64,000 nucleotides of DNA from Cordia subcordata (Eukaryota; Streptophyta; Magnoliopsida; Boraginales; Cordiaceae), in contig JAPTOF010000010.1 of the NCBI GenBank assembly GCA_028554755.1, positions 14,270,501 through 14,334,500 of the forward strand, read 5' to 3'. Below, one piece after another: positions 5,169 through 53,111 of this stretch (position 1 is the stretch's first letter; each line of letters begins with the position of its first letter). The position numbers and the translations under genes are program-made. Below the pieces are notes generated by a model. That model had not been told where the DNA came from. It ran no database searches and saw only the letters and a list, made by a program, of their open reading frames with translations.

Positions 5169-5174
5169 AGTTCT

Positions 5175-5192
5175 TGGCACCGTTGCCGGGGA
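5175..5192 (+). promoter_or_regulatory. primer binding site, tRNA-Asp type
   Basis: Six bases after the LTR end, TGGCACCGTTGCCGGGGA is complementary, with one mismatch, to the 3' end of plant tRNA-Asp (whose complement begins TGGCGCCGTTGCCGGGGA). This primer is typical of Athila/Tat-type gypsy elements. Confidence 0.88.
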
Positions 5193-9340: not shown

Positions 9341-9850
9341 CACGACCCTTGTCTAGGCTCCTAGCACAAGATGTCCCTTTTGACTTTGATGATGAATGTG
9401 TTAGAGCTTTCAATATGCTTAAATCCTTATTGTCTACATCCCCAATTATCCAGCCACCTGACTACAGTCTCCCATTTGAGGTTATGTGTGATGCATCTGA
9501 TTATGCGATAGGAGCTGTTTTAGGTCAAAGGAAGGATAAGTTGCCCCATGTTGTATACTATGCTAGCAAGACTCTTGATGAAGCACAAAAGAATTATACC
9601 ACTACGGAAAAAGAGCTTCTAACAATAGTTTTCTCCCTTGACAAGTTTAGGTCATACATCCTAGGATCCAAAGTGATTGTCTACACTGATCATGCAGCAT
9701 TGAAGTATTTGTTGTCTAAGAAAGAATCTAAGCCCCGCTTGATTAGGTGGTTACTCCTCCTTCAAGAGTTTGACATAGAAATTCGGGATAAGAAAGGTAG
9801 AGAAAATTTAGTTACAGATCATCTTTCCCGTCTTATTAGCGAGTCTTCTA
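9341..9850 (+). pseudogene. Athila-like RNase H domain
   Basis: Part of an uninterrupted 737-codon frame from 8998 to 11211. The RNase H catalytic residues are recognisable in [16 protein letters not shown] (first D), [20 protein letters not shown] (E) and [14 protein letters not shown] (D), with DHLSRL near the domain end. It degrades the RNA strand after reverse transcription. No break was seen within the domain. Confidence 0.93.
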
Positions 9851-25465: not shown

Positions 25466-26390
25466 ATGAAATGGAGTTGGGATTCAGTTAATTACCCTGC
25501 AGTGACTTTCTGTGTCACAACCGGTCTTCTTCTTGTATTCGTTCTTCAAGTTACGGCCTGGAAGAGATGGCCACCAGGGCCACCAGGATGGCCAATTTTT
25601 GCTAACATTTTCCAGCTTGGAGAGCTCCCACACCAGAAAATGCACAAGTTGAAGATCAAACACGGGGCTCTTCTGTGGCTGCAGCTGGGATCAATAAACA
25701 CCATGGTTGTACAAAATGCTGAAGCTGCATCTCAACTTTTCAAGAAGCACGACGCTGCTTTCTGTGACCGAAAGCCTCCGTATACGCTAACAGCCTTAGA
25801 TTTCGAAAAAGGCTCGCTGGCTTTCACCAACCACGGCGGATATTGGCGTGTCCTGAGGCGGATATGCTCCACGGAGTTGTTGGTTAACAGACGAATGATT
25901 GAGACCGTTGAGCTCAGGAGGAGGATTATTGACAACATGGTGCTTTGGATTGCAGAGGGTTCAACAGCGTCACTTGCTCGAGGAGGATCAGGGGCAGTGC
26001 AAATTAGTCGCTTCCTTTTCCTCATGACGTTTAACGTGGTGGGCAATCTTATGCTGTCGAGGCACTTGTTGGATCCGAATAATCCTGAAGGTGCTGAATT
26101 TTTCGAATCCGTGCACGAAATCAGTGAGTTAGCTGGAACGCCCAACATTGCAGAGTTCCTTCCGTTCTTGAAATGGATGGATCCGCTCGGAATGCAGAGA
26201 AAAATGGTCGAGAAAATGACACAAACTATGAGATTTTCTTCCAAATTTGTGCAGGAGAGGCTCGAGAACAGAAAAGCAGGACAATTTCAGGAGAAAGAAA
26301 GATTTCTTGGATATGTTGCTCGAGTATGAAGGGGAGGGTAGAGATGGGCCTGATAGATTTACGGAGAAGCTTGTCAACATTAGTATCATG
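25466..26390 (+). CDS. CYP76A-type cytochrome P450, exon 1 (one-base frameshift)
   Basis: Cytochrome P450s of this family are ER-anchored monooxygenases; CYP76 members often hydroxylate terpenoids, but the substrate here is unknown. The ATG at 25466 opens an N-terminal membrane anchor (FCVTTGLLLVFVLQV) followed by the proline hinge WPPGPPGWP. Then come LGSINTMVVQNAEAASQLFK and the C-helix WRVLRRICSTELL (WxxxR). The frame meets a stop at 26327-26329, but the family sequence continues one frame over (DFLDMLLEYEG) from about 26300. One extra A in the GAAAGAAAGA run at about 26291-26300 explains it. The exon ends at ATG before the donor GTAACC. The frame break is either a pseudogene mutation or a sequencing error. 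Confidence 0.88.
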
Positions 26391-26763
26391 GTAACCTACC
26401 TACTTATAAGTCATTCTTTCGATCATAGCTAGCTAATTAGCTTGGCAACTTTTCATTTGTGTTTTATTAGTTATAGCAAGATCAACGTACGATGTTACCA
26501 TACTTTTATTACTAGCTCAAACATTACCTGATCTTATGTAATTGGCATGTCAACTTTAAATAATTTTTTTTTAAAAGTTTTTCTCTTATTTGAGCATGCC
26601 AACTAAGCATACATATAAGCGATAATATTTGTGCGATGAAACTAAATAGGGTAAGGTCTAGTATTAGACCATAGACACCATAATTTCTTTCTTGACAATC
26701 TGTTTATATTTTCAACTAGTTCCTGAAAGATTAATCTGTTTATAATTTATTATGCCCATGCAG
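26391..26763 (+). other. intron of the CYP76A-type gene
   Basis: A 373-bp phase-0 intron with donor GTAACC and acceptor ATGCAG. It lies just before the I-helix oxygen-binding motif, a position I recall for the single intron of many A-type P450 genes. Confidence 0.85.
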
Positions 26764-27378
26764 GAAATGTGCATTGCAGGAACAGATACTTCAGTTAGCA
26801 GCATAGAATGGAGTCTTACTGAGCTGCTACGCAACCCCCACACCCTGGAAAAGCTTAGGGAAGAGATTGATCAAGTAGTGGGACTAAACAGGAAGGTGGA
26901 AGAGAGTGACATAGAGAACCCACCATACTTGCAGGCTATTGTTAAGGAATCGTTACGTTTACATCCCTCAGTTCCGCTACTCTTCCCAAGGAAAACAGTG
27001 GAAGACACCAACTACATGGGATATCTCATACCCAAAGCCACGCAAGTCTTGGTGAATGCATGGGCAATCGGCAGAGATCCAGAGTCCTGGGAGGATCCCT
27101 TGACCTTCAAGCCCGAAAGGTTTCTTAACTCAAATATCAAATACAAAGGTCAGCACTTTGAGTTGATTCCATTTGGTTCTGGTAGAAGGACATGCGTAGG
27201 CTTGGCCTTGGCTCATCGATTGTTGCATCTTGGGTTAGCCACCTTAGTCCAAGCATTTGACTGGGACCTCGACGCTGGTGCCAAACCACAAGACATAGAC
27301 ATGGATGAAAAAATAGGATTACTTCTGAGGAAGAAAATTCCTTTCGAAGTAATACCTAAAAAGCGACTCGACGTTTGA
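26764..27378 (+). CDS. CYP76A-type cytochrome P450, exon 2
   Basis: This exon of 204 codons plus stop carries all the catalytic signatures. The I-helix reads AGTDTS, the K-helix ESLR in VKESLRLHPSVPLLFPRK, the PERF motif is FKPERF, and the heme-binding loop is FGSGRRTCVGLALAHR (from 27172) with the axial cysteine present. The end is FEVIPKKRLDV. Together with exon 1 it makes about 512 residues, normal for CYP76. Apart from the frameshift in exon 1 nothing here is damaged, so the loss of frame would be recent if real. Confidence 0.93.
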   Translation, partial: EMCIAGTDTSVSSIEWSLTELLRNPHTLEKLREEIDQVVGLNRKVEESDIENPPYLQAIVKESLRLHPSVPLLFPRKTVEDTNYMGYLIPKATQVLVNAWAIGRDPESWEDPLTFKPERFLNSNIKYKGQHFELIPFGSGRRTCVGLALAHRLLHLGLATLVQAFDWDLDAGAKPQDIDMDEKIGLLLRKKIPFEVIPKKRLDV

Positions 27379-34386: not shown

Positions 34387-34605
34387 TCATTCCTTCTCAG
34401 CAATTACCACAAAAACATCCTTCAAGGACCACATCCTTCTCTCATTTTTGGCTGTTGGATTGATGATAGCTTTCTCTGCGTTAGCTAGACGATAGCCAAT
34501 CAAAATTTCTCTTCTCTGTCGTGCGCGTAATAGAACTTCATAAAAACTTAACTGCTCACCCTCCCAAAGGTAAAGATCTGCCCCCCTTATTTGCAATTCA
34601 TTCCC
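34387..34605 (-). CDS. CASTOR: CASTOR exon 12 (last)
   Basis: Residues 844-915 plus stop (GNELQIRGADLYLWEGEQ, FYEVLLRARQRREILIGYRL, WSLKDVFVVIAEKE, TGA). Acceptor TTGATAG. The C-terminus matches the family end. Confidence 0.94.
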   Translation of the reverse strand, partial: GNELQIRGADLYLWEGEQLSFYEVLLRARQRREILIGYRLANAEKAIINPTAKNERRMWSLKDVFVVIAEKE

Positions 34606-37600
34606 CTATCAATAATAACAGTAGAGTTTTCATTAACTTGAGGAAGAATATAAGATGCCGCAGCAGAAGAGGGTCTAATGCAAAGGGAAAATATAGGAAA
34701 GAAGAGTATCAAGGATCATTTAGCACGACTAGGTCTCAAGGATGCAATTTAAGAATCAAAATTTTACGAAGGAGACTGAGGGATGGCATGTAAGGAGACA
34801 GAGTACAAAAGAAGAGTTATACTGTAGATAAAGAACCATTGATATTAGGAAGGAAAAGAGCACGAGTCATTTAATAAACTAAGGCCAAGGGAAATAACAT
34901 CATTTGAATACATCATCAAATGGAACGAGAATGAGCTAAGAAAAGAAGAAGAAAAAGATAAGGATCAAACAAAATGGCAGCAACTCAAAGGAGGGAATAT
35001 CATGCAAGTTTGTGTTCTTACACTTGCATTTCCATGTCATATAGGCATACAAAATATGTATATATAATGGGTCATCTAAGCAATTTTATGCAAAGCATGT
35101 TATAAGCTTTTGGTGTCATAATAATATAATATTAATGTGCAAATTCATAACCAAGTTAAACAGATGGTTGCAAATACTTTTTTTTTTTGGGGACTAGAAT
35201 TGCATCTCCCATGAATACACGTCCATTAAGAAGAATCTAAAAAGAAATGCAATGTTTTGTTCCAGCAGATGCGAGGAATAACAGTGAGATGCAAGAAAAA
35301 TAATGATAGAGGGAGGATTTAGGGAAGAAAAGCAGTTGGGGTATTTAGACAAATAATTGGTGTGGTGTTGAAATGAAAAGAATGTAAACAAAGAAATATG
35401 GAATTACAAACTTTTCGTATTATTGGAGGAACAATCAGTATTGATACCATAAACCAATCCAATCTCTAAAATTAACAATCACATATAAGCTGCAATAAAA
35501 GATTCAACTTAGAAAGGGGCTTATACGAATTTGCAATCAAAGTGGCATAGATAAGGGCCAATAAATTAGTACATAGCAAAGGAGATCCACGTGAATATAA
35601 GCACCCCAACGAAGACTCACACTCTCTCACTCTCTTCTCCTCTTGCCGAAGTGTGTGCAAATGGTGTTTCCCACACAAAAACTTTAGCCTAATTGCAAAA
35701 CCACCTTAACAAGGCCATGACTCGCACATATCAGATATATACACACGCAAATACAGATGTGCCTAGCATGCAAAGGAAGTAAATAGCATGGAATTAGGGG
35801 GGTATTACAATAATTGTTTATGAAAGATGGAAAAGTTGACCAATTTCCCTTCATTTTATAATTAATTAATTCATAGAAAACTATGTTTCAACTATTGTTT
35901 CAGGTTACTTCTTGCATCAACTCAACTGATACAACCTACAGGCATTTCCCTGATAGAGGGAGGATTTAGGGAAGAAAAGCAGTTGAGGTCACAGGGCTGA
36001 GCATTCGGTCAAAACTGAACCGAAATAACCGAAACCAAAAAAACCGAAAACCGAATTTTAAAAATTTTAGGAACCGAAACCGAACCGAATTACTGAAATA
36101 ACCAATTTTTTGGAACCGATTTTTTTCAGTTCGGCTCCGGTTATTAACCGAAATAACAGAATTGCTTCAAAAAATCATAACCTTAATTTTCCATACATAT
36201 TTGCAAATAAAAAATAAAAGTAAATTCAAATTCAAATCAAATGAAGGATTAATGGTTCACAACAGCAATATCTCATACACCTAAAAAAATCAATCTTTCG
36301 GTTCAATTATAAAATAAAGGCTTTGATTTGATGATTAAACTTAAATGGTTAAACTTTAAAGACTTAGAGTATTCAATTATAAAATAAAAGCCTATTACCT
36401 AATACCTATGAGTGCTAGACGTCTAAACTACATAGAATTCAATATTTCGGTTCCTAACCGAAATTTTAGAATAGGAACCGAACCGAAAACCGAAAACCGA
36501 TTTTTTTTTTTAAATTAACCGAAACCGAACCGAACCGAAATACTGAAATAACCGAACCGAAATAATAATTCGGTTCGGTTTCGTTTCGGTTTTCGGTTTT
36601 ACCCGAATTATGCTCAGCCCTAGTTGGGGTGTTTCGACAAATAATTGGTGTGGCGTTGAAATGAAAAGAATGTAAACAAAGAAATATGGAATTACAAACA
36701 TTTCGTATTATTGGAGGAACAATCAGTATTGATACCGTAAACCAATCCAATCTCTAAAATTAACAATACAGGCATTTCCCTGATATTAATCAATTTACTT
36801 TTCCATGAAATATTTTAAGCAGAATAGTATTAAAACTTCAGTAATACAGTTCTGTTAATTTAAAAGTATTTATGCCCTATGTCCCAACTCCCAATTGAAT
36901 GTCATGGTTTATCGAGCCAGGACCTTCAGGAGAGAGTAGAACAAAAAATCCATGTGAGCATGCATGCTGAAAGATGAGAGTACATTTTGTTCAGGCAACA
37001 AAACTTTCCTTATAGACGATAAAGTGAGTTTTAAACAACCAAATTCGTACGTAAAGAGAATGATTACCTCTTCTGCAAACAACTCTTCTAATACATCATT
37101 TATCTGGCGGTCTTCAGCAACCATGGCAAGTGCCATGCTGACAAGCTCATTTGACAAAACATAATCACTGATTTTTGACATGGATAATAGGTTTTTAGTT
37201 CTTGGGTCTAGAATTTCACTGATTATAACGGACTTGTCTGAGGCCTGCTGCATTTCTCCAATCCAGGAGCCTTGCGAGAAGCTACTCCTGTGAATTTGGG
37301 AAACCATAGCTCCTCTATATGGGAGACGCTTTGCCTGTGAAACCCAAATTAAAATTTTATGCACTACTCTTCATTTTCTTGAGCAGAAAAGCAGGGCGGG
37401 CTAAAGCTTCATGAAAATCTGGCTACTAATGAATCGCAACTGAAATGACATATCTAAAAATGACGTGCAACTATAGAAACGTAAAAGCACCAGATACTAC
37501 CACATTGACTTGAGTTATTAAGTGAAATATCGCCTAGTGATGAAAAGTCCTGGTGTATAAAATGCAAAGCAGCTAATGATTGATCAAATTATATAGCATC

Positions 37601-40600
37601 TGCAAAGGCAATGATTAACTTGTTCAATGCAACCTTTTATGTTATAAAAGTGACAAAAGAAATAGAAAGATGCTTAATTTTCTTCATTATGTTCCAATAA
37701 TTTTCAGGTTATAGGCCCAGGGTGAAAATCTATGCCCAGGAAGTAGGTGACTTTAAGATGGAAAATAATTTCTGAAAGACATCACAATTACCCAACCAGA
37801 AGAATAAAGAAGCCAAAAAGAAAGAAAAAAAATTCCAAAGAAAATACCTGAATATCACGGATCAGCAATAATGTTGCAAGCGATCTTGAGTCAGCCTGAA
37901 TTGCTGAATCTTCTACTGATTCATCGGCCAAAATCAAAATCTGGCCATACCAGGAACTACATCAGTGTACAGTTAGCTAAGGAAGTTAGAAATTTAACCC
38001 AGAAAGGAAGTATCAACTGTGCAACCAACATAAGTATTATTATGATTTGAGTGAGTTTCCAACTTAAAATATCATGGATACTATAGCTTTTACCCTTCCT
38101 CGACAAACTTTTTACTAAAGAAAATGCTAAGCATGTGACCATATATCAAGTTCCACTCACTGAATTGAAATCCTCCAACGGAAGGCTCTCCAAGTGACGT
38201 CGTATAACTGCATTTCCTTCACGGTTAACCAGAGTTATATTTACCAACCGACTGATGTCAAGGCCACCATCTATAAGCTTCTTTTCCCTCTCACTTTCAG
38301 GTACTTCATTAAACATCCACAACTCTGAATCAGGAGCTAGAAAGGCGTCCAATACCTAAAATAACATCAGAAATGGTGATTCTGAGATTATCGAAGGCAA
38401 AAGAATGCATTGTTAGTTTTCTTTTTGCACTATGGATATGAAGGCAACAGCAAAATTATTTGTCCAAATTGAACTCCTCAGAGCAACATGTAGGTAGAAA
38501 ATGGTGAACTAGAAGGATACAAGAAACACTTTGAATATGGTCTACCACCAAACTTGAGACACAACCAGTGTGTCATAAGTTTCTGAAACCCAGAGTAGAC
38601 TTCTTGCAACTTTACCGTTATCATATCTTCCATATCACGCCGCCAACCACAAAAGAGTATCTTTTCGGCAGACCTTGGAACAATGAAGTCCTTGGGTAGA
38701 ATTCCTCTCCAGACCTGCAGCATTGAGGCGAAGAAAGAAAGAAATCAGGGGCTTTGATTGATAGAGCTTACCACAATCATATCATCAATGTCCCGCCTCC
38801 ATCCACAAAGTAGAATCTTCTGTGGCCTCTTTGCTGGTCGGGCCATGTGTATGAATGTTGCTTCTTGGACCTGAATAACCAAATTAACTATGTGTCTGTA
38901 AGCTGTGTATATTGTAGGCGCTACTCGCTTACGTTTCCAGTTTATGGCTCACTCCAATGGGCACAGAAGAAGCAGTTTCTTTCAGGAGTGAACAACCAAA
39001 AGACAACTCAAATTTTCCCAATGAGAAAATTTTATCAATTGCCCAATGCTCAAGATAGTTCAAAAAAGCCATAAGTTTTTCGAATATAACAAAAAACTGA
39101 TATTATTGGCCTTCATGGGCCATGGCTCCTTCTTCTCTTAAGGAAAAGGAATTTTGACCATTTGCCCACCAAATATCATTGTAGCCTCTATTTCTTAAGA
39201 ACATGAGAATTTCCCTCATCCATATCAGATCTGACAAATATATGTTCAACTCTTCAACCATTTCTATAGGTGTTGAGCTATTTCCTGTTTCCAACTACTC
39301 TCTGTCAGAGGCTACACGCTAGACACAAAGCTTGGCTAGGGCAAAAACACAGGTGCAGGAGAAGGTGCTTGCCTTTTTGAAGCAAGGTGCACTTACAGAC
39401 GCAAAATGCAGAACCTAATTAGTATTGCCTGTGTAATATTGTAAATATCAAATTGCATGGCATTCAAATGGAATATACAAGGCAAAATCAGCAATAAATC
39501 ACTCATCCATATTCTGGATAGCAAATAAAATGTAGTAAATTCAAAACTCCAGACAAACTTAAGAAATAAAGACATCAAACTGAAGCTGATCTTAATTTTA
39601 GAGATGCAAACTTCATCACAAACTCGGGAAGTTGCGCTTTTTCTTTTTCATTTTCCTCTTTGAGCCCTGCATCTAGTGCTCTAAGCCCAACAATGCCTTT
39701 CAAGTGTGAAATAGATTTTCCATATTAAATAAAAACTACTTATTACTGGATTATCTACATAGATTAGTTGTACTAAAGCGAAGACTATGTCACTTAAAAT
39801 GGAGCTACGTGAATATTAAAAGCAGACAAAGTCGTTGAAAATATTTGAAGTTTCGTAGCATTATTTTCATCACACACAGTGATTGCATTTCATGGAATGC
39901 ATATTCCTGGCAAGCACAATGTTCAAAATTTGGGCTAGTTATCCAATAACATTCAATTGTCCAAGTTGAAATACTTCAGATAGACAGTGTCATTAACCAA
40001 TAGGCACATGAAGTAGGTTACTCAAAAACAACATAAAAGGATGAAGAAAAGATGATAAGCAGAATGGAACTACATTGATTGACTGATTTTCTGTTTAAGT
40101 ATTATGGCAGAGATGTTTTTCTTTTTTCTCCATCCCTTTTACTCGCATTCAAGAGTTGCTTATTAACAATCATAATAGACCCTGGACAAATAGTGGCAGC
40201 CGCACCCTTCCACTTTTCTCCATACCTTTATTTGATGCTCGTCATGTTCAAGAGTTGCTTATTGAAAATCAAAATAGACACTAGACAAACAGTGGAAACT
40301 GCACCCCTCCACTTACAACAATATGGGTAGTTTTTTGCTATTTATTCTAATTTATTAAGGTCTAAGATAACAGAAGAATCAAAAAGTCAAATGACCAAAC
40401 TTGTCTTTCTACTAGATAGATTGCAACTAAAAGTTTTAACTTCATGGAGGTTTCAGCATGTAATTTAAGTGAATCAATAATAGCTCATAGGATTTATCAT
40501 AAACTTTACCTCTTTTGTTCTTATTGCTTCTGTTCACACAATTATATAAATTTTCCGGCTTTTTTCTTGGCAGGGGGTGAATGGGAATAGATTTTAGGAC

Positions 40601-43600
40601 TGTCTAAACTACCTTTCCATGTCTGAGGAGGTTCAGCTTGTTAAATAGAAAAGACATTAGGATTTGAAGAGAAAGGCTTGGTACATATTATGTACTTAGC
40701 CTTATTTATAATATTGGGTAATAACACAAAGTTTCCTAATTCTCCAATGTGGGAGAATTACAATACCACTACTAATAATTACTAACACTCCCCCTCAAGC
40801 AAGAGCATAAATATTATATGTGCCTAGCTTGTTACAAATGTTCTCAATAGGGGGGCCTTTTAAGGACTTAGTAAAAAGATCAGCTAACTCATCATTTGAA
40901 CTAACATGTGATGTAACAATCTCCTTAGCTAACACTTTACTCCTCACAAAGTCACAATCTATTTCAATATGCTTGGTTCTTTCATGAAAGATTGGGTTGG
41001 TTGCAATATGCCTTGATTATGACATATTAACTGCATCGGCTGAAAGCAATCCACTCCAAGTTCCTTCAACAAGTGTTTCACCCAAATTAACTCACATATT
41101 GCTAACGCCACAGCTCTACACTTAGATTTTGCCCTCGAGCGGGCTACGACTGGTTGTTTCTTTTCCAAGAGACGAGATTTTTGGCAGCTTGTTGCGATGC
41201 TTGAAGTTGAAAATAGTACTTGTACTCTGCTTCAGACAAGGTAAAGATACGAGAATTTTTCCAAGGAGGAAGGCCACGAAGCATAATCACGACAAAGTAT
41301 TGTTCACATTGTTTCCGTGCAATGTCTATATCAGGAGGGAAGATATCATTGTACGCAAACATGGCATGTTGAAAGCAACCAAAATAAACTTGGAGACCAC
41401 GATCATCCAACTGAATTCAGAGGAGATCATTGACGACATCATAGATACGACTAACATTGCTGGTGTACATCTCTTTTGCCAAAGTCCATATTGCCTTACA
41501 TGATAGACACTCATCAAAGACATTGTGTAATTCTGAGTCAATAGATTGCAACAGTAAACAGGTAAGTTGGGCGTCAACGCGCCCCTAAATCTGTTTATTT
41601 GCAGCGGACAAAGTAGCTAGGGCATCCTCAGTTAAATGATCTTCCAAACCCTGCCCTTTAAACCATAACATAACGGCAAAATACCAACGAGAGAAATTAT
41701 GACCTGCGAGTTTGGTCGTTGTAATAACAGGAGCGCCATTGAATGTGGGCACAACAAAGGAAGTAGCTGATTCAGTATCAACAGCGATTATAGCAGATGC
41801 AGCACAATCGCTGGTAGTAGCTTTAGAGGTATCCATCCTATTGAGAAGATCAAACTCAACAAACTAAAGACAAGGCAATCAGACAGAAATACCAAAAAAG
41901 AACACCGAAAAGGCAGACTAACAACCTATTCTCATGACAACTTCGTTCGTCTCTGTTCTTTTCTTTTTTTTTGTGTGTGTTAATAGGAACAAAGACTAAG
42001 TGTCAAGAGGAAAAAAAAACATAACAAAACTTTAAAGCAAGCAAAAATCAACTCGACAGAACACAAAGGTAGAGAGAACCAGGCATGCTGGAAGACAGGT
42101 CAACCAAGCGTCGTCAGCGTGTGGAGCACATGCGCACCAAAGGTGGCGCATGAAGCTCACGCCTAGGAAGCACGGACACGATACGTGGACACGTGATACG
42201 ACACAATGCGACACGTGGACACGTTCTTTTCTAAAAAACTAGGATACAAGACGTACGGGATACGTTAAATAAATTATATTTAAATTTATAGATATAGCAC
42301 ATAAATATTAATTTTTGTCGTAATAAAAGAGAATAAACAAGACTAAATATCTAAATTAATATGTTATGTAATATTTAATACATAACTAGTTATGTAATAT
42401 GAAAAAAATAATAATAAAATAAATATATAATAAATAATTAATATGTGATTAGGCTATTATATTTATTATGTGGCTAAAATACTATTTTAAATTTTGATTG
42501 AGATCATTTCATAAATTAAATATAATTTTAAGGATTAAAATGTAAAAAAATTAAAACGTCAAATCAAAACCCACTTAATCCTTTTTCTTTCACTTTTCAC
42601 ATCACTCAATGCAAGACCACCAACCCACCTACCCTTCTTCTTTCTCTTTTCCTGTCACACGTACACACACACACACAAAAAACACACAATGCAAGACCAC
42701 CAACCTACCCCTTCTTCTTTCTTCTTTCCTGTCACACATACACATACACACACACAAACACACACATACATAACAATGACAGCAGAGAACAAATGCCAAA
42801 GTTTGAGCATTGCCATCAAGAGAATGGAGCGAACTACCTTTCGGCTTTCAAGTGCAGACCTCACCAAGCAACAATGGAAGTTGCAGTCTAATTTTCTTTT
42901 TCTTTTTCTTTTTTTTTTCCCTTTTTGGGTTCAAAGCTTTTGAAGCGTGTCACGTGTCCGGGACGTATTCGGGCTTGTCCGAAAATGTTTTTTGAAAAAA
43001 AAAATTTGGACACTTGTCGGACACGTGTCTGAGCATGTCCAGCGTGTGTCGGTGTCCGACATGTGTCGGATACGCGATACGCAACCTTGGAGGAGTGTCG
43101 GTGCTTCTTAGGCTCATGCACGGGTACCAATGATGCACCGATGAGCCTGTTGTGGTCGGCCAAGGGTGAGGAAGTCGTTGAGACTAGTCACGAAACAGAA
43201 GAAGCGTGTTTGATAGGCTAAATCACGGTAGAAAAGAGTTAAAAACCCTAGATGCTTGTTTACTTTTCCAGCAGAATCCAAGAGCAGCACCGAAGATGGA
43301 AGGTCGACAATGGATAGGGAAGAGGCTGGTGGTGATGGTGTGGGGTGGGGCTCGCCGGCAATCGCTGTTCCAAAAAACAGTAACATGTTATTTTTTTTTT
43401 ATTGTTTTTTTTTTTTTGGGTGTTTGTGTTTGGGGATTTAGAGAGTTGGGTGGGTTTAGGATTTGGTTTTTGTGTTTTGATTTCTTGGTGAAAAAATAAA
43501 ATAAAATTGTTATATGGTGGAAGAAATCCTAATGTCTCAACTTGGCTTTAGATACCATGTTAAATAAAAAAAACATTAGGATTTGAAGAGAATAGCTTGG

Positions 43601-46600
43601 TACATATTATATACTTAGCCTTATTTATAACATTGGTAATAACACAAAATTTCCTAATTCTCTAATGTGGGGGAACTACAATACTACTACTAATCAATAC
43701 TAATAACTACTAATACGGAAAAATACCAAAAATTTGATAGGTTAGTGATATGCGCATCATTTTTTAATTACCATTACTGTAACGTGGAGAAATTGAAGTT
43801 TCTACAGCTACAATTATAAACTACAGTTTACATTGGATCAATTATATGGATAGTAGAACACTCTGCATAAACTGCTAACATGTGGTGTCTAGAGGCTGCA
43901 AAATTCAACTTACTATATGTTTAAGCTTTTCCATGATAAGGATTTACATGGAAAATCATCTATGTTACATGTCTCAAAAATGTAGATCCTAGTATTATCT
44001 AAAGGATGATGTTTGATGAATATAATAGTTCTATTTGTAACTGCCTCTAAAAAAATGATAGGTTTTTAACTTTTAACCTTGTTTCTTGCTACAAAGTGTA
44101 ATTGCCTCTAAGAAAATGATAGGTTTTTTCACTTTTTAACCTTTTTATCTGCTACTTATACTGTAATTTTAAGTTGGGAAGCCACATGGAATCCCATGAT
44201 TCTTCATTTTTTTCAATGTTTTTACAATAGTAGGTACACTATTTTCTTTTTTATGTTCCAAAGTTGGAGTCCCACATAAGTGTTTGTTCTTTTTCTGGTT
44301 TGACACATGGGATGAGTGTTTCTTTAATTTTTTTTATTTATTAATACTTGGGTGGGATGACGCCTTGTGCTTACTTCTTTCATTTTTTTATATTTTAATT
44401 TATTTTTTTGAATATTTATTTTCAATTTTTTCATTGATAAATTGATTAAAAATTTTCAAAAAAGTAAATTAATTTCATGACTTTTAACTTTTCTTATTCT
44501 AAATATCATGAATGTTCACATCCGAAAAAATATATATCCAATACACTAGTAAATTCTTTTATCATATGACACCTGTAGCATCTTGTGGGTCTACACACTA
44601 ATTAAGCAAAATACATTGTAAATCCAAGTGTTGAGTTAAAGGGAAGTACCATTGGAAGTGCCGCAGGAGCATACGTGTCATCATCCTCTGCAATGACAAG
44701 AACTTCATCTCCTTCTTGCAGAACATACAAGTCATCAGGATTTAAAATAATCTTTCCACCACGTGAAGCCACCTTTACTCCACAAGGAATGGCCTCAGGG
44801 AAGCTGATTAAGACATCCTCAAATTGCATGCCATCCAACTGTGGCCATCTTTTGATGTAAAATTCACAATTCTCAAATCCAAGAATGTCTTCCCATATCT
44901 GCCACAACCAAATCCAGAGGAAAAGAAATCTTCATGCATGGAACCAAAACTAAGATTGTTTGTACAACGATAATCAAGTAGAATATAGCCAAACCAAAAA
45001 ATAAATTACACTATATAATTAGTGAACAGATACATTACTCTACAATCAGGATAACTAATCAAAGAAGCATTACTATAGACTAAAACAAAACCAAAAAAAA
45101 AAACATAGCAAGATGCAGAAAAGATGTAGGTGAGACAAACAAGAAATAACCTGTGCTAGACCAGGCTGACGAGCACACTGTATCATCAATCGACCTATTA
45201 CATCATGTGCTACAACAGTTTCAACAAGATCACCACCAACAAGTTTAACTAGGACTTCATTATCAAGATCACTCAGTTCAACCACTATGTGTCCCTGCAG
45301 TCCTTCTTTAACTCCTGTGAGGCTTAATACTGTCCTCAGTGCACGGGCATCACTCTGCATGAGAAAATAATTTATCACAAGTGTCATCGCTGAAAATAGC
45401 TCCACTTTCTTTCTGTTCAAGCAAAACTTCTCTTTACTGGACTAACCTGATCAGCATTTCCTTCTTCAGCAAGGACAACTATTGCACGAGCCTTTGAGAC
45501 GGATACCTACTAACTCTATTATGTTAGGCTGAAGTAAGAACCAAACTTTGAATACTTATCTAAGAGATGTTTCTTCACCATAAAATAAAGCATTGAGCCT
45601 CAGTAACAGGAAAAGCACATGCACAGGAATATCTATCTAAAACAAGAAAGCAAAGTACAGAACCCAACCAATGTTTCATGTTATTAGGCAATAAAGCCTA
45701 CCATAAGAGCATCAGAGTAAAAATGTCATGCTAGTTCAGGAACCAGGAACATTACCTTTTTCAGGTCAGCTAAAATGAGTGGACTCCCACTTCTACATAT
45801 AACAGATGTTCCTCTAAAATCAAACTCCATTTTAGTGATGTCAAGTTCCATCTCCTCTTTGTCACGTTCAGCCAAGACAACAACTATTCCTCCACCCAAA
45901 CTCTCGTTGGCTATAGCAAGTTGATTTAACAATGATCCCTGTTGCAGAACTTTTAGTAAGTCAACAATGGGATTAATCTCCCCAGAGAACCTGAACAGTT
46001 CACACTTATCTTCTTAAGTAAATCCGTTAAGATCTCACAATCTTGAAGGGATGAATATATTTAGAGTAAGAAATGCACATTCCATTCTCCCAAAGCCTGG
46101 CAGTTTATGCATTTTTCTTCCTCTTATACACTACTCTCTTATTATCAAGTTCTCTTAAGGGAGACTAGGTTTCTCCTTTTAATATTTCCTTAGCTTTGAC
46201 TAACAAACTGCCTCTCATTTCAGTTAGAAAATAGCTTAATAATCCAGTCTTAGTGTAGCTTTTCAATAAGAAGAATGCTATGACACAGCAAATATTGATG
46301 TCCCCTTTGACTTGACTGGTAGAGAATAAATTAGTCAATGCTTGATGGTGCCCCTTTGTAACAGGAACACTACATTCAATGTTAGTCCTCCCTATCTGTG
46401 AACCCTTTACAGGCAACACCACAAAAGAAAAGCTGTGGGGCTGGGATGGACGGAGAGAGACAGAAGGAGAGAGATGCATCAACAGTGAGAGAATTTATGA
46501 AATCATTAGGAAATTCTGTCGGCAGTAACTTACCCAAAATAACAGAAAAAAAGAAAATAATAAAGCGACACTTTCTTGTTGAGAACAGATGCCGTTACTA

Positions 46601-49600
46601 AGATGAGGTTCTAGGTGCTTAACAAATCCAAAACAAACAACAAAATCAATGATTAATTATATGGAAAGATTCTTAAAATAAACAACAAATCAGTTATTGA
46701 TTATAAGGGAAGCTTGCTGAAAAGGAAGAATGATTTCATTATGATATCTGAGATGCTATAGAACATTTCCCCAAACTCAAAGAAAGATATCCAGCCAAAG
46801 GACTGACCAATTTGTCGCTCCATCCGAGAATAAGAGTGTGGTTTTGCTCTACTACTTCACTTCTTCCTTTCCTTAGGGAGTCAAACTTCTCAGAAATTGC
46901 ATCTGAGACAAGTCCAAGCATCATTGCAAATATAAGCATCCCACCAAAGCTAACTGCAACAGAGACTAGCCTTGGACCTATGCCTTCAGAGTCAGCATGG
47001 TTCCCTGAATCTGCTACATATGTCCAAGATAACCAAAGGGAATCTGCTAGGCTATCATCTTTCACACCATAAAGTGCTAACCCTCCAAGAAAAATCAAGA
47101 GAATGGTAGCAACTAACAAAGCCAGCGGCTTAGCATACGGGTAGACTGAGAAAAATATGTCCACTTTGTAAGCTAGCTGTTTGCTAAAAGATACTTTGTC
47201 AGTGCCACTGTCGAATGGAGATCTTCTGGAGTACAAGACAATGTCGAAATATTTGAAAAAGAGAAGAGGGAGCGATAACAATGTGAGTGAGACAACTAGC
47301 GCCATACTTTTCAAGCCTTTACTGTGATGAATATTGGCATACTCTGGTGTGGAATCAGTAAACTTTACAGATTCCAACAAGTTACAAAGTTGTAGTCGGG
47401 TATTCAGCAGGGAAATCTGATCCTGTATATAGAAGAAAATGAATGGCGTCAGGAAATAAATAAATGTGGAAGAAGATCAGATTTACAAAGTGGTAGTTGT
47501 TGTTCTAGGTTTCTAGCATTCAAGCATAATCAGAAAAGGCTATGAAGGACAACTCTGCACTCATGATTCAAAAAATTGCTAAGGGATGAATGCCATTCTA
47601 GAATTTCATGACTTACACAGAGTACAATTTTCGAATTTACCCTGGACTTGAGTTATTCTATATGTTCAAAGGATCAATAATGAAGTGATCAAAATCCAAA
47701 ATTGTCAAACTAGATACATCACATGAAAGAACTCATGATTTTGCTGTATTCAAATAATGTCAACTATCAACTACAATAAGCTCCGAACTTTAAATTCTCA
47801 TGGGAGACTTAAACAGATGACATAGTTAAGATTTGGATACAATAGTGTACACACACTCCATTATAATAGTAGTCAATCCACCCATCTAGGGCCTGTATCT
47901 AATAATCAGCATTTCTTCCATAATTTCTAGAACATCACTTCTTCTTAAGTATACACTTTATAATGGACATATTTTATGCTTCACATGTCAATAATTAATC
48001 CATACTCCCTAGCACAGCAAAAGGCAAATTAGCTCAGTTATTGACAAAGGCACAAGGATCTCGATCACCAAGCATAACACTCCTGAAGCAAATAAAGCTC
48101 GCTGGTTGTTAGGTAGTTATAGGAGTTATACGAGGAGTTAGTTACAGTTAGTGGAATAACAACTAACTCTGTCAGAGATGAGTTGTGAAAACTCGTAACA
48201 GAATCCGTTATGAGTAATCTAGCAGCTGTACATGCTGCTCTGCTTATTGGAATATACCAACTCAGTCAATAAAATACATTTCAGATATTTTTCAGTCTTT
48301 TTTTTTTTTGTCTTTCAGTAATGCGTATTGATTGGAAAACTATAATTGTTGTCGATCAAGAACTATGAAGTGTAATATTACTTATCAGAGACAAAGGTTC
48401 ATTCTAAGGCTTTTGCACAGAGAGAGAGATGCTTCTTAGCACGGATTCCAAAATGGTGGTCAATACCTTAATTTCTGCTTTCAAGATTCAAGTAGTTAAG
48501 GTTAAGTTCTCTTAAATTGGAAAGCTAGTGGCAACTCTTTATAAGATTTCCCAAGGCATAGAGTGCAATTTGTTTTCCTTTAGTGAATCAAGCATCTCCA
48601 AGCAGTGCAAGCGAGGTTATTTTCTACAAACTGGCTTCAGATCATTCATTGTATGCTTTCACAAATGAGGACTCTGATACTAAAATCATTGTTCACGACA
48701 GAATCTCTATCTGAGAAACTTCAGAATTAACACTTCCCATAGTCGCTAGAAATTCAGTTTCCACATGAGTTTACCGACAGTGTATTCTCATAAAAATGTC
48801 CTCTCATAAATGCTTGTACTAATCTGTTTCCACATACCAGATTTTAAGAGCTTGCCAGTCAAGCATGCTACATCTGTTGCAATATTGTTTCTCGAAAGAT
48901 CTAAACTATAATACATTCGGAGAGAGAAGGTTTCAGTCACAAGGAGCATCGCTTCATTACAATCAATTAGCTTCAAAAATCGATTTTCTAAAAATGTGTA
49001 CATGAAAGCTTAAAAAATTTAGTATAAAACATTGTTTACGGAAACGTACATTTTGAATGAACAACAATAAACACTGGTCCTCACCTCAAGTCTAATATAT
49101 CAACAATAGGATTGCACACACAATATTATCCAAATATAGTGCATCAAAAACAGTTGTTCATTTATTGAGTTTCAACCGCTCCCCTCCTATAAATAAGTCA
49201 GTTTCTTGATAGATTATTAAATTATGAAGAGCAACTATCCATTTCTCCTTGTTGTCCAGCCCAAAAATAAAGTTGTGGCATATGGTGACTTCAAGTTTGT
49301 AGAAAATATATAAAACATAAAATATGGAAAGAAAATATGAAAGTACTGAAGATGGTTGGAGCCACCACCAATGGTGGCTCTAGAAGCGAAATACTCATAA
49401 AGACTACATTGTGAATTGTTGATCATCCATGAATACAATAGAAGAGCTTATTTACAGGCATGATAACTTGGTGAACAAGACTAGAAGCTAAACTAATAAG
49501 GTAATTAGAATTCTAAGGAAACTAGAATAATAAGGAAACCAATTTGACTAATTACCTAATCTAGACTATTGCCTAATTCAATAACATAAGATAAGGAAAT

Positions 49601-52332
49601 ACATTAATAACTAAAATATTCTTCAACACCCCCTCTCAAACTCAATGTGGTATTTGAGATATGACATTGAGTTTGAAAGGTTTTCAAAAAAAAACTTGAT
49701 CTTGATCGAAGGGACGGTCACCATGGCTCATCTAACTCGAAATTCACCACTGTCACCACAACTTGTCTAACCATGCTTACAGCTTGGAGGAATGGAATTT
49801 GAATTAATTTAGGGATCGTGTGCACCACTTTGTTGTTATGAATCCCCACAACCATTAGACAGAACTTAGATTGAGATAGTAACTGAAAACTGAATTCGAC
49901 TTGGATTTGGACTGGAGTTGGATAATAATTAGAAACTGGAATTGGATTTGGATTTGACTTGGATTTGGATCCGAATGTGGATCTAGATTTAGATTTGGAT
50001 AGTCGTGTGACTTGTAGGCTAACACGACTGCTTGGATTGACGTGAGACCCGTAGGCTGACATGTCTATTTGGGTTTTTTTTTTTTTAAAGGAAACAAGCC
50101 ACCAGGAGGATGGCTCTGATACCATGTGGAAAATATATAAAACATAAAATATGGAAAGAAAATATGAAAGTACTGAAGATGGTTGGAGCCACCACCAATG
50201 GTGGCTCTAGAAGCGAAATACTTATAAAGACTACATTGTAAATTGTTGATCATCCACGAATACAATAAAAGAGCCTATTTATAGGCATGATAAGTTGGTG
50301 AGCAAGAATAGAAGCTAAACTAATAAGGTAACTAGAATTCGAAGGAAACTAGAATAACAAGGAAACCAATTTGACTAATTACCTAATCTAGACTATTGCC
50401 TAATTCAATACCATAAGATAAGGATATACATTAATAACTAAAATATTCTTCAACAAAGTTAAAATAATCACATTTTGTGCAAATATCTACATTTATATAT
50501 TCACCCTTCCGTAATCTTGACAATCACCAATAATGTAATCACCTAAATCTTCGCTAATACTGATGGCTTCTTTTTAATACGAGACCCACTTGCTGCTAGT
50601 AAGTGTATTCTGGTGCCAGTAATCTTGACAGTCACCAATAATGTAATCACCTAAATCTTCACTAATACTGATGGCTTCTTTTTAATACGAGACCCACTTG
50701 CTGCTAGTAAGTGTATTCTGTTGCCAAATCTTAATGTTGCAGGGAGCCCACAAGTAAAGGAAGTTTCCCCATCTGGATGGCAAAAGAGGATGGAAGGAAT
50801 TGAAAGGATTATTCTATTTCTTGTTTGTTCTGGGAAGTAAAGGAAATGATAATTCTAGATAACAGTTAAAAAAATTAACATTTTCATATATTTAGTCTTT
50901 TCACTCATCATCCTTTCCACTGTGTCTGAATTAGTGAGGGAAAGGAAAGGAAAGGAAAGGAAATGATAATCTAGATAACAGTTTAAAAAATTAACATTTT
51001 CATATATTTAGTCTTTTCACTCATCATCCTTTCCACTGTGTCTGAATTAGTGAGGGAAAGGAAAGGAAGGGAAAGGAAGGGAATATACAGGAAAATCATG
51101 AAGAAAGGGAGGTCTTGCATGTGTATAGAAACATAAGACGAAGGAAAAGGAAAGGAAATAATTTCATGTTTTCTAGTTTGAATACGACAAGGTGAGGAAA
51201 GAAAGGTTAGGATGAACTGAAGCTAGTAAAATAACCTTTACATACTTTACAATTTCAAATAGTTAGGTATATTCTTACTTGTCAACAGAAAAAAGTTAGT
51301 TAGGTATATTCTAATCTTTTTGAAGAACATCCTTCCCTTTCTTTCTTGCTGACCAACATCCTTTCCTTCCCCTTTTGATGGAGAGAAAAAAAAAAAAGAC
51401 TGAGCATAAAAGGATCAGAGGCACCCAATAAAAAGGAAAATCTTTTAACCAGAAAAAGGAAAAAGGAACCTCACTACCCACACGCAAAAAACAAATCTTG
51501 ACCCAATCACCCGCCCTGAATCAGGTAACCACTGCCAGATTGAGCATGCACCCATCAGTTCCTACAGCCTCTTGTTAACCCCAAGAGAGAGGGGGGAAAA
51601 AAAAGAGAGGCCACTGGTTGTGTCCAACCTCGGCAAGCATTACCCTGTAAATAGCAGTGGAGTTAATCCCATTTTACCCCATGAGATATTGGTCAAAACC
51701 CAAACTTTCCTATGAACTTCTTACATCACCCAGATTCTCCTATGATATTGAATTGTTCCAAACAAAGCCTTAGTAATAAAGACATTTAGTCCTTTTATTT
51801 TATTAAAAAAATTAAAAAATTCCCCAATACATAGGCACACTACACATTACATAATAAAATTTTTATATATTTTTGTCATTTCTATTTTCTATAAAAAAAA
51901 CTATAATCCACCAATATAGAGATATACTACACATTACACCACAAAGTTTTTGTATATTTTTGTCTTTCTTTTTTATTTTTCTAAAAAATATAATCTCTTA
52001 ATACATATATAGACACAACACGCATTACCCCACAAAATTTTGTGTACATTTATCTTTCTATTATATTAAAAAAAATTACAATCCATCAAGACAAATATAT
52101 ATATACATATATATATATAGAACAACACTTGAAAATACACCCTCAGACCTTTGCTTTTGCCTCTTATTAGTACTGTTATACCTCTCCTTTAAGTGTACCA
52201 CTTAAATGACTCAAGCACAAGAATCACTGATCACCCAGGAGGAAAAACTAAAAAAAAAAAGGAAACAAACACACTATAAAAACTTTTCCCCATTATCAAG
52301 CAATATATTTCTTGTCGTTCGTACAAAGTTAT

Positions 52333-52363
<31 letters not shown>

Positions 52364-53111
52364 GCTGCATTACCTACCTGTAATTCAGTAACTTGATTCT
52401 GTAAGGTAAAATTCTTGTGCACCAAAGACGATAACACAGTGACCAACACCTGCATCCAAACAAACCTCGTAAATACAATCAATTAAAGAAAAAAAAATCG
52501 AAAACCCTGCAATATAAAACTTAAATAATAAAAGTGATTAATACATAATAAAATTCTTATCGTTTTAAGAATTTTTTAAAAAAAAATGGCTAAAAGAGAG
52601 CGATGAAATGACACTTAACTGCAATAGAAAAGATCATACGCCACCGGAGATTTAACCGGTGACTTGTAAACCTCTTCTTGGAGGACGGCATTGCTTTCTC
52701 CTCCGAAACGGCGTCGTTGGTCTTCGGCTCAATATTGTTCTCATTCGTCCTCGTTGACCTTTCATTTCCGCGTTGATCATCACAAGCAAAGCTATTATCG
52801 AAACGACGTCGCACACCGGCGTACTTGAAATGAGATGAGGAAGAAGAAGGCGTCGTTGGAGAGTGAAACGACGTCGTCGGGGTAGGGGTAGGGCTAGGGG
52901 AGGTGCGTTTGGGGTAAGGAGAAGAGAATCTGCGGATGGGGTTTCTGGGGACGTGCGACGAGTGAATGAAGGAGTGTGATGGGAAGAACCAGTCGCGGCC
53001 GCTGCTGCTGGCTGCGACGGCGGACGTGGCGGCGGCGGTGGCGGTGGCGGTGGCGGGTGGACCAAACGGAGTCGTTGATTGTCTGTCTGAATCGAGGGGC
53101 ATGGTTGACAT
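34387..53111 (-). CDS. CASTOR: CASTOR-type ion channel gene, 12 coding exons
   Basis: CASTOR is a tetrameric channel of the nuclear envelope needed for nuclear calcium spiking in root symbiosis with mycorrhizal fungi and rhizobia. Twelve exons join in one frame to 916 codons (915 residues). Layout: serine/proline-rich N-terminus (1-150), a first membrane segment across exons 1 and 2, two more in exon 3, the pore with filter ADSGNHA (about 325-331), a fourth segment, then two RCK-like regulatory domains starting at HTLILGWSDKL. All eleven introns are phase 0, GT-AG, 92 bp to 5.8 kb. No stop or frameshift was seen. Two ATGs, 53111 and 53102, are possible starts; the second begins MPLDSD, which resembles the legume start I recall. 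A duplicated exon 8 is listed separately. Confidence 0.95.
35304..35479. repeat. segment duplication in CASTOR intron 11, copy 1 (empty site)
   Basis: Starts TGATAGAGGGAGGATTTAGG and ends AAAATTAACAAT. It matches copy 2 (35951-36767) closely apart from the insertion there. It shows the uninterrupted sequence GCAGTTGGGGTATTTAGAC. Confidence 0.88.
35951..36767. repeat. segment duplication in CASTOR intron 11, copy 2 (interrupted)
   Basis: The same segment as copy 1, split by the 633-bp element at 35990-36622. The copy is bounded by an 18-bp direct repeat, TACAGGCATTTCCCTGAT, at 35937-35954 and 36767-36784, which points to a patch inserted during repair. Confidence 0.85.
35990..36622. mobile_element. 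hAT-like non-autonomous element with 8-bp TSD
   Basis: The ends CACAGGGCTGAGCAT and ATGCTCAGCCCTA are inverted, and the subterminal regions are rich in ACCGAA/TTCGGT repeats in opposite orientation on the two sides. The flanks GTTGAGGT (35982-35989) and GTTGGGGT (36623-36630) form an 8-bp target duplication with one mismatch, as expected for hAT. The duplicated segment at 35304 gives the empty site. Confidence 0.8.
37068..37334 (-). CDS. CASTOR: CASTOR exon 11
   Basis: Residues 755-843 (AKRLPYRGAMVSQIHRSSFS, ASDKSVIISEILDPRTKNLL, DYVLSNELVSMALAMVAEDR, VLEELFAEE). Acceptor TTCACAG, donor GTAATC. Confidence 0.94.
37848..37940 (-). CDS. CASTOR: CASTOR exon 10
   Basis: Residues 724-754 (ILILADESVEDSAIQADSRS and LATLLLIRDIQ). 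Acceptor GGCCAG, donor GTATTT. Not covered by any long ORF; placed from similarity and phase. Confidence 0.93.
38161..38355 (-). CDS. CASTOR: CASTOR exon 9
   Basis: Residues 659-723 (VLDAFLAPDSELWMFNEVPE, NREGNAVIRRHLESLPLEDF), the start of the second RCK-like region. Acceptor ATTTTAG, donor GTGAGT. Confidence 0.94.
38616..38714 (-). CDS. CASTOR: CASTOR exon 8b
   Basis: Residues 626-658, beginning VWRGILPKDFIVPRS and ending LFCGWRRDMEDMIT. Its wording is the one I recall from legume CASTOR (LPKDF, ILFCGWRRDMEDMI), so this is probably the default exon. Acceptor ATGCTGCAG after a pyrimidine tract, donor GTAAAG. Confidence 0.92.
38772..38870 (-). CDS. CASTOR: CASTOR exon 8a, alternative duplicate of exon 8
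   Basis: An open 99-bp block with acceptor TTATTCAG and donor GTAAGC, encoding 33 residues that begin VQEATFIHMARPAKR and end LLCGWRRDIDDMIV. It has the same length, phase and position as exon 8b, which ends LFCGWRRDMEDMIT, so it is a diverged exon duplication. Either one joins exon 7 to exon 9 in frame. The gap to exon 8b is 57 bp, shorter than plant introns usually are, so both are unlikely to be used together. It has no stop and has kept its conserved core, which suggests selection. Whether it is expressed cannot be seen here. Confidence 0.75.
38871..40123. other. CASTOR intron 7, distal part, no gene
   Basis: Intronic DNA between exon 8a and a small tandem duplication. No recognisable coding sequence or element ends. 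Confidence 0.5.
40124..40314. repeat. tandem duplication in CASTOR intron 7
   Basis: Two units of about 90 and 101 bp, each starting TTTTCTCCAT and containing TTCAAGAGTTGCTTATT and CCACTT-like ends. The second has a short extra stretch (TTTGATGCTCGTCATG). Confidence 0.8.
40639..40787 (-). repeat. 3' LTR of deleted copia element
   Basis: TGTTAAATAG to ACTAACA, 149 bp; matches 43558-43715 with several changes. Confidence 0.85.
40803..41168 (-). pseudogene. copia RNase H remnant
   Basis: Minus-strand reading KKQPVVARSRAKSKCRAVAL, ICELIWVKHLLKELG, CHNQGILQPTQ, then HIEIDCDFVRSK and DELADLFTKSLKGPP up to the polypurine tract. The catalytic SSAEAEYRA block of the family has become SRAKSKCRA, so it is inactive. 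Confidence 0.82.
41170..41836 (-). pseudogene. copia gag remnant
   Basis: Starts with ATG at 41836 and reads TTTKLAGHNFSRWYFAVMLW and FKGQGLEDHL, the usual copia gag N-terminal block. After a stop at about 41585 it continues in other frames with QLDDRGLQVYFGCF and FVVIMLRGLPPW. It runs straight into the RNase H remnant at about 41170, the junction of the internal deletion. Confidence 0.78.
42163..43110. mobile_element. GACACG-rich inverted-repeat block inside the copia leader
   Basis: The left end GCCTAGGAAGCACGGACAC is inverted at the right (GTGTCGGTGCTTCTTAGGC), and both sides carry many GACACG/CGTGTC words. The wording is one I have seen in plant foldback or Mutator-like elements. No target duplication was confirmed. 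It also contains CA microsatellites (about 42660-42770). Confidence 0.5.
43544..43715 (-). repeat. 5' LTR and primer site of deleted copia element
   Basis: The LTR starts TGTTAAATAA at 43558. Just left of it (43544-43557) the minus strand reads TGGTATCTAAAGCC, close to the tRNA-Met type primer site TGGTATCAGAGC. Confidence 0.78.
43716..44649. other. CASTOR intron 7, proximal part
   Basis: AT-rich intron DNA. A small imperfect duplication (AACTGCCTCTAA and AATTGCCTCTAA, each followed by AAATGATAGGTTTTT) covers about 44036-44152. No coding sequence was recognised. Confidence 0.5.
44650..44898 (-). CDS. CASTOR: CASTOR exon 7
   Basis: Residues 543-625 (IWEDILGFENCEFYIKRWPQ, GGKIILNPDDLYVLQEGDEV, AEDDDTYAPAALPM). 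Acceptor TGGCAG, donor GTACTT. The next intron is the longest and holds a copia element. Confidence 0.94.
45151..45354 (-). CDS. CASTOR: CASTOR exon 6
   Basis: Residues 475-542 (SDARALRTVLSLTGVKEGLQ, VVELSDLDNEVLVKLVGGDL, CARQPGLAQ). Acceptor ATGCAG, donor GTTATT. Confidence 0.94.
45447..45506 (-). CDS. CASTOR: CASTOR exon 5 (60 bp)
   Basis: Residues 455-474, VSVSKARAIVVLAEEGNADQ, a strand-loop of the first RCK domain. Acceptor GTTAGTAG, donor GTTAGT. It lies outside any long ORF and was placed from similarity and phase. Confidence 0.92.
45756..45938 (-). CDS. CASTOR: CASTOR exon 4
   Basis: Residues 394-454 (GSLLNQLAIANESLGGGIVV, AERDKEEMELDITKMEFDF, CRSGSPLILADLKK), part of the first RCK domain. 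Acceptor CAACAG, donor GTAATG. Confidence 0.94.
45939..46807. other. CASTOR intron 3, no inserted element recognised
   Basis: 869 bp between exons 3 and 4. ORFs here on either strand lack any domain. Confidence 0.5.
46808..47422 (-). CDS. CASTOR: CASTOR exon 3 (pore)
   Basis: Residues 189-393, the largest exon. It holds two membrane helices (MALVVSLTLLSLPLLFFKYF and PLALLVATILLIFLGGLALY), the pore helix and filter LWLSWTYVADSGNHADSEG, a fourth helix (VAVSFGGMLIFAMMLGLV) and the start of the first RCK domain, VVEQNHTLILGWSDKL. Acceptor TATACAG, donor GTCAGT. The filter matches the ADSGNHA wording of CASTOR/DMI1 channels. Confidence 0.95.
47423..49297. other. CASTOR intron 2, proximal part
   Basis: Intron DNA with no recognisable gene. 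A short stretch near 48110-48310 (GTTAGGTAGTTATAGGAG, then TCAATAAAATACATTTCAG and a T run) looks like a degraded LTR end, but no boundaries could be set. Confidence 0.4.
49293..49297 (+). repeat. target site duplication AAGTT, left
   Basis: Exact match to 50456-50460 on the other side of the element. Confidence 0.9.
49298..49628 (-). repeat. 3' LTR of TRIM-like element
   Basis: 331 bp. It contains a hairpin GAGCCACC-ACCAAT-GGTGGCTC, also present in the other LTR. Confidence 0.92.
49718..50124 (-). other. internal region ORF of TRIM-like element
   Basis: An open frame of about 135 codons starts within the LTR edge and primer site and fills most of the interior. It is rich in serine, lysine and asparagine (SKSKSRSTFGSKSKSNPNPI) from imperfect GATTTGGATT-type repeats. 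No gag, pol or other domain is seen, so a protein product is doubtful. Confidence 0.4.
50111..50124 (-). promoter_or_regulatory. primer binding site, initiator tRNA-Met type
   Basis: TGGTATCAGAGCCA on the minus strand abuts the LTR end with no gap; its first 12 bases are the standard plant initiator-Met primer sequence. Confidence 0.9.
50125..50455 (-). repeat. 5' LTR of TRIM-like element
   Basis: 331 bp, followed on the + strand by the AAGTT duplication at 50456-50460. Confidence 0.92.
50511..50726. repeat. 108-bp tandem duplication in CASTOR intron 2
   Basis: Two units of 108 bp (50511-50618 and 50619-50726), both starting GTAATCTTGACA. They differ at only a few positions, so the duplication is recent. 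Confidence 0.92.
50839..51075. repeat. 117-bp tandem duplication with GGAAA repeats
   Basis: Two units with a 117-bp period, each starting AAAGGAAATGATAAT and ending in TGTGTCTGAATTAGTGAGGG, joined by short GGAAA repeats. The GGAAA tract at both ends offers a slippage or misalignment route. Confidence 0.9.
51076..52330. other. CASTOR intron 2, distal part
   Basis: AT-rich intron DNA. Around 51780-52080 a roughly 120-bp unit recurs in diverged form (AATACATAGGCACACTACACATTAC and CACACATTACACCACAAAGTTTTT-type blocks). No gene was recognised. Confidence 0.45.
52331..52360. repeat. CA/TG microsatellite beside CASTOR exon 2
   Basis: A near-perfect CA run on the + strand (TG in the transcript), ending about 18 bases from the exon 2 donor site. 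Confidence 0.95.
52378..52449 (-). CDS. CASTOR: CASTOR exon 2
   Basis: Residues 165-188, only 72 bp: the rest of the first membrane helix (VLVTVLSSLVHKNF) and the start of a short coiled stretch (TLQNQVTELQ). Acceptor TGCAG, donor GTAGGT. A TG repeat begins about 18 bases into the following intron. Confidence 0.92.
52620..53111 (-). CDS. CASTOR: CASTOR exon 1
   Basis: Residues 1-164. It contains the block SSSGRDWFFPSHSF, shared in wording with legume CASTOR, then serine-, threonine- and proline-rich low-complexity sequence and a basic stretch. The first transmembrane helix begins at RMIFSIA and ends in exon 2. The donor is GTTAAG. CCG/GCC-rich codon runs (ATATATAAATS) make this the most GC-rich part of the gene. 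Confidence 0.9.

Follow-up and report, generated by a model that had tools for sequence, protein, structure and literature searches.

The gene for the nuclear Ca2+ channel CASTOR in a 64,000-nt stretch of Cordia subcordata DNA (hereafter the window) contains two neighbouring, homologous versions of exon 8, designated 8a and 8b, which are probably a tandem-duplicated pair of which normally a single member is spliced between exons 7 and 9, so that residues 565–580 of the linker (numbering of LjCASTOR, from Lotus japonicus) are swapped. More tentatively, and as a possibility that we rate somewhat short of even, CASTOR of seed plants could be a two-state exon switch that was already in place when gymnosperms and flowering plants diverged, the 8a state having been lost in legumes.

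The CASTOR gene and its two exons 8

The protein deduced from the window scored 1052 bits against the gating ring of Lotus CASTOR and 890 bits against Medicago DMI1; as judged from this better match over the gating ring than to DMI1/POLLUX, the gene is CASTOR. The 25 best matches of the modelled protein are 85–88% identical. In the gene model, the lengths of exons 3–12 are all multiples of three and their joined frame is open; exons 1 and 2 are delimited approximately, with the start of exon 1 near 53111 and a segment of exon 2 near 52419. The features of the gene are:

34387-53111, minus strand, CASTOR gene, beginning with the exon 1 frame and ending at the stop codon, with exons 3–12 modelled
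47422-46808, minus strand, exon 3 of the gene model
45938-45756, minus strand, exon 4 of the gene model
45506-45447, minus strand, exon 5 of the gene model
45354-45151, minus strand, exon 6 of the gene model
44650-44898, minus strand, exon 7, end of RCK1 plus the first 12 residues of the RCK1–RCK2 linker
38871-44649, minus strand, 5779-nt intron between exons 7 and 8a, which an LTR-type insertion has enlarged
38772-38870, minus strand, exon 8a, the alternative copy, translation VQEATFIHMARPAKRPQKILLCGWRRDIDDMIV
38715-38771, minus strand, gap between 8a and 8b, 57 nt, with GT-AG ends
38616-38714, minus strand, exon 8b, the copy in the Lotus CASTOR structure, translation VWRGILPKDFIVPRSAEKILFCGWRRDMEDMIT
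38161-38355, minus strand, exon 9, joins 8a or 8b in frame
37940-37848, minus strand, exon 10 of the gene model
37334-37068, minus strand, exon 11 of the gene model
34605-34387, minus strand, exon 12 of the gene model, with the stop codon

The first-pass annotation of this DNA had described 8a and 8b as two minus-strand exons of 99 nt with the same phase; its coordinates and translations were all reproduced, and the shared phase is 0. It had also credited both with good splice sites: GT-AG ends are present in the two exons, and how good the sites are is a judgement by eye. The donors are ATTGTG/GTAAGC for 8a and ATAACG/GTAAAG for 8b, and the acceptors of the pair are GTTATTCAG/GT and TGCTGCAG/GT. 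Exons 8a and 8b are identical at 13 of 33 residues and at 52 of 99 bases. This likeness is greater than chance, since, of the 19,368 open frames of 33 codons that the window contains on its two strands, the best apart from 8a and 8b shares 8 residues with 8b. A chance likeness or a dead copy was also considered for 8a and is disfavoured by the 13/33 shared residues, as against at most 8 elsewhere, and by its conservation in relatives. The frame stays open in each of four arrangements, with exon 7 followed by 8a, by 8b, by both or directly by exon 9, and consequently a frame shift cannot keep 8a and 8b apart. Thus, 8a and 8b are neighbouring homologous exons, either of which fits in frame between exons 7 and 9.

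Two introns of the gene hold repeated sequences. Two direct repeats of approximately 147 nt, 90–92% identical and 2.9 kb apart, are found at 40639-43703 in the intron preceding 8a, and look like the bounds of a decayed LTR element of Copia type. The intron before exon 12 includes a block rich in GGTTCGG/CCGAACC (35990-36622), with an internal 48-nt direct repeat and ends that, by eye, resemble inverted copies; it is perhaps a small DNA transposon.

Distribution and conservation of 8a and 8b in seed plants

Homologs were collected with three protein searches, using as queries the 8a segment (254 candidates, 253 of them with E values no higher than 1; the best 120 were listed), Lotus CASTOR (best 120 of 1846) and 8a with Lotus flanks (best 120 of 988). 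Their union comprises 245 distinct proteins among the matches listed, from a clustered database in which isoforms of cluster members may be hidden. These 245 proteins included 95 with 8b only, 58 with 8a only and 82 in which 8a and 8b are joined directly (P0218, P0220, P0224 and P0229 being counted as joined forms); of the remainder, five keep the gap, three use an acceptor 39–42 nt inside 8b, one shows a 6-nt shift (P0083) and one has 8a twice (P0003).

Among the matches listed, 8a occurs in rosids, asterids, Vitis, Papaver and Thalictrum, and also in Persea, Tasmannia, grasses, Vanilla, Cryptomeria and Ginkgo, the last being record Gb_17779, which from its name we take to be of this genus. 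As far as these eudicot, monocot, magnoliid, Ginkgo and Cryptomeria proteins indicate, 8a is an ancient alternative. The presence of both exons in CASTOR of flowering plants and gymnosperms answers, as regards CASTOR, the proposal to look for the same pair in other plants. The proteins with 8a only are from eudicots and one magnoliid (Tasmannia), and in monocots and gymnosperms 8a was found only in proteins that also hold 8b, in both cases among the matches listed. Six entries on contigs of mRNA size (approximately 3.0–3.8 kb) were all 8b among the matches listed. These observations, together with the labelled rice isoforms described below, speak against a wide use of 8a.

Leaving out the 8a copies with an altered core, the mean pairwise identity among the matches listed was 80% for 68 distinct 8a sequences and 77% for 109 distinct 8b sequences, whereas 8a and 8b within the same protein were on average 40% identical (88 proteins). 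This agrees with the earlier view of 8a and 8b as both open and conserved, which argued against a dead copy. The variation is concentrated in the linker half, with 64% identity against 96% in the core half of 8a, and 63% against 90% in 8b, among the matches listed.

Some lineages show particular forms of 8a. In Solanaceae (P0053-P0055, P0059-P0063, P0071, P0078, P0083 and P0084) 8a reads LLTGW instead of LLCGW, and among the matches listed this type is present only in proteins that also hold 8b; 8a may work differently in this family. In wheat and Aegilops (P0105-P0108 and P0110), all of them joined forms, the core of 8a is CGMRRD, with the conserved tryptophan changed. The predicted protein P0003, from Xanthoceras, contains 8a twice in a row followed by 8b, and exon 8a may have been duplicated again in this plant.

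Annotated isoforms mostly take one exon of the pair

The matches listed include 67 entries labelled as isoforms, from 50 species, two of them being Vitis vinifera X2 records; such isoform labels come from a read-supported pipeline. Entries P0164, P0121, P0122 and two TCM_019847 isoforms were omitted, as were P0027 and P0218, whose labels looked transferred; both of these are joined forms, and their inclusion would raise the joined fraction to 6/69. Within this set, which represents annotation and not reads, 28/67 entries (25 species) have 8a only and 31/67 (27 species) have 8b only, as expected from the first-pass prediction that each transcript would use one exon of the two. Another four join both exons (two from Nicotiana, one from Solanum stenotomum and one from Salvia divinorum, all thus from Solanaceae or Salvia), three keep the gap and one uses an acceptor inside 8b.

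In nine species (Alnus glutinosa, Coffea arabica, C. eugenioides, Cornus florida, Cucurbita maxima, C. moschata, C. pepo, Theobroma cacao and Ziziphus jujuba) the annotation includes 8a-only as well as 8b-only isoforms. A one-for-one exon swap predicts isoform pairs of identical length, and such a pair is annotated in eight of these nine species, Ziziphus being the exception. The labelled isoforms of rice were both 8b.

The claim that each transcript carries a single exon was upheld by 59/67 isoform-labelled entries, but not by the direct joins in 82/245 listed proteins. To judge from these sequences, exclusivity of 8a and 8b is probable but not strict.

The gap between 8a and 8b and a possible basis for exclusion

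The gap of 57 bp reported initially was confirmed, and plant introns rarely work below approximately 70 nt. Its sole branch-point-like sequence, CTGAT at 38744-38748, is a candidate whose A is separated from the 8a donor by 27 nt and from the 8b acceptor by 30 nt. A donor very close to a branch point cannot pair with it, as occurs in alpha-tropomyosin. We propose that a tandem duplication would have generated 8a and 8b, that mRNAs would normally carry a single copy, flanked by exons 7 and 9, and that the very short gap would hinder splicing from 8a to 8b sterically. Three database proteins that join 8a and 8b with an acceptor 39–42 nt inside 8b have, by that shift, a longer intron between the two exons.

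The gap also contains an in-frame TGA, a point absent from the first-pass annotation, and its retention in the mRNA would therefore truncate the protein in this plant. In the database proteins that retain it, the gap has a length of 54 nt in four cases and of 66 nt in one.

Alternative explanations for the exon pair

Among the alternatives, the most serious is that 8a is a conserved cassette exon that can be spliced together with 8b, adding 33 residues and leaving two GWRRD motifs in the protein, with an exclusivity that would be weak or lineage-dependent. The number of direct joins (82/245 proteins among the matches listed, and 4/67 isoform-labelled entries) and the conservation of the frame when both exons are joined speak for it; nevertheless, we regard it as unlikely, given that just one of the two exons is found in 59/67 isoform-labelled entries, that the 57-nt gap is short, with a branch-point candidate 27 nt from the donor, and that the crystal structure of Lotus CASTOR has a single copy of exon 8. 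Additionally, judging from their names, many of the direct joins resemble gene-finder models.

Much less probable is a role of 8a mainly in unproductive splicing, in which inclusion of 8a with a kept gap would lead to a stop, mRNA decay and less CASTOR. The in-frame TGA in the gap of the window and the annotation of gap-keeping proteins in five database entries would fit such a role, but these same five entries read open through the gap, so that a stop within it is not general, and 8a is conserved as protein, with a core half that is 96% identical. Slightly less credible still is that 8a is a decaying duplicate that continues to be annotated for being exon-like to gene finders: although 8a is missing from 33/33 legume entries among the matches listed and core residues are changed in some 8a copies from grasses, Solanaceae and Morella, the exon retains an open frame and approximately 80% identity in flowering plants and two gymnosperms, and the annotation includes isoform pairs of equal length. 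An origin of 8a from POLLUX by gene conversion was unsupported, the DMI1 segment being equidistant from the 8a and 8b consensus sequences in a comparison of only 33 residues. A pair of alternatives that are normally used one at a time continues to be our preferred explanation.

Legume entries contain only 8b

Among the matches listed, 33/33 legume entries, including Bauhinia, Prosopis, Acacia and many papilionoids, have 8b only, a pattern that was not foreseen in the first-pass annotation. In the Lotus gating-ring search (best 120 of 1846), 8a was found in 0/33 legume entries versus 25/87 others (Fisher p = 0.0002, for entries that are not independent, six of the 87 being without a species name). 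Legume forms of 8a were sought with the 8a query flanked by Lotus sequence, which should rank any of them high, and there were none among the best 120 of 988. The simplest reading of these database sequences is that legumes lost 8a; the pattern comes from a clustered protein database, where the inferred loss could be overturned by cluster members that are hidden or by exons that are unannotated.

The single entry from Quillaja is 8b. Alnus and Morella are nodulating non-legumes; an 8a-only isoform is annotated in the former, and in the latter a joined form with a changed core. Additionally, exon 9 begins with VLDAS in most legume entries, and with VLDAF in the window and in most other plants seen.

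The swapped segment lies in the RCK1–RCK2 linker

Gating-ring structures and recordings are available for Lotus CASTOR, for which a Ca2+-activated Ca2+ conductance was reported (Kim et al., 2019, PMC6697748). Taking E552 as the anchor for numbering, 12/12 other residues named in that paper agree with the letters at their positions in the Lotus chain. Exon 8 corresponds to residues 565–597 of LjCASTOR, which comprise the second half of the RCK1–RCK2 linker followed by the GWRRD segment of RCK2, and this bears out the location at the junction of the two RCK regions that had been attributed to the swapped part. Replacing 8b by 8a alters linker residues 565–580 and a few residues at the start of RCK2, and retains GWRRD. 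According to the same paper, R590 forms a pair with the Ca(I) ligand D442, and the stacking position of His463 is between R589 and R590 (Kim et al., 2019, PMC6697748). Mapped in this way, residues 565–580 are the swapped part of the 28-residue linker that leads from RCK1 to the N-lobe of RCK2, and the GWRRD arginines are those that join the Ca(I)-site contact. The 8a and 8b forms would be expected to differ in the coupling of the two N-lobes and in the response of the gating ring to Ca2+, and an effect of exon choice on Ca2+ gating is the natural inference. Structures predicted for the 8a-only protein P0111 (alignment of 56 rows; mean pLDDT 47.7, pTM 0.32) and for the joined form P0023 (35 rows; mean pLDDT 47.1, pTM 0.27) were too poor to use.

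Relation to known systems and significance

The CASTOR pair is similar to exons of the alpha-tropomyosin type, which are neighbouring, homologous, of equal length and phase and used one at a time, as is probable for 8a and 8b, and in which, as in the gap between 8a and 8b, a branch-point candidate is very near the upstream donor. Unlike them, it belongs to a plant gene, direct joins are annotated in some lineages, and both exons are multiples of three, so that a frame shift cannot police double inclusion. The gating-ring structures of Lotus japonicus CASTOR (PDB 6o6j, 6o7a and 6o7c) are of the same channel and contain the same 8b segment, 565–597; however, Lotus, as the other listed legumes, shows only 8b, and hence the linker in its 8a form is absent from these structures. 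Medicago DMI1 (PDB 7vm8), a sister channel of POLLUX type, has the same segment at the same place, with 19/33 residues identical to the 8a consensus and 19/33 to the 8b consensus, and therefore gives no pointer to the ancestral exon.

A search of the open-licence PMC literature retrieved no paper describing exon-8 isoforms of CASTOR. These isoforms are visible in public annotation, and in that literature we found them nowhere drawn together; the novelty concerns the gene, how deep the conservation goes and the pattern in legumes, mutually exclusive exon pairs as such being of a known kind. The nuclear Ca2+ spiking behind the root symbioses of legumes needs CASTOR (PMC6697748). If true, a conserved switch in the RCK1–RCK2 linker would offer a direct handle on the tuning of CASTOR from one tissue or partner to another. 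Non-legumes would then rely for nuclear Ca2+ signalling on subunits of the 8a and 8b types, which would differ in gating-ring coupling and might be mixed within a tetramer, and legume nodulation would operate on 8b alone. The work on Lotus CASTOR would in that case describe one state only, and the 8b-only pattern of legumes would explain why it did not meet 8a. Likewise, the pair would provide a deeply conserved plant example for the study of mutually exclusive splicing.

Other features of the window

Outside of CASTOR, two open frames at 25466-27378 on the plus strand resemble, by eye and from their translation, a two-exon cytochrome P450 gene. Frames at 1038-11211, also on the plus strand and including one of 737 aa at 8998-11211, resemble by eye retrotransposon polyproteins.
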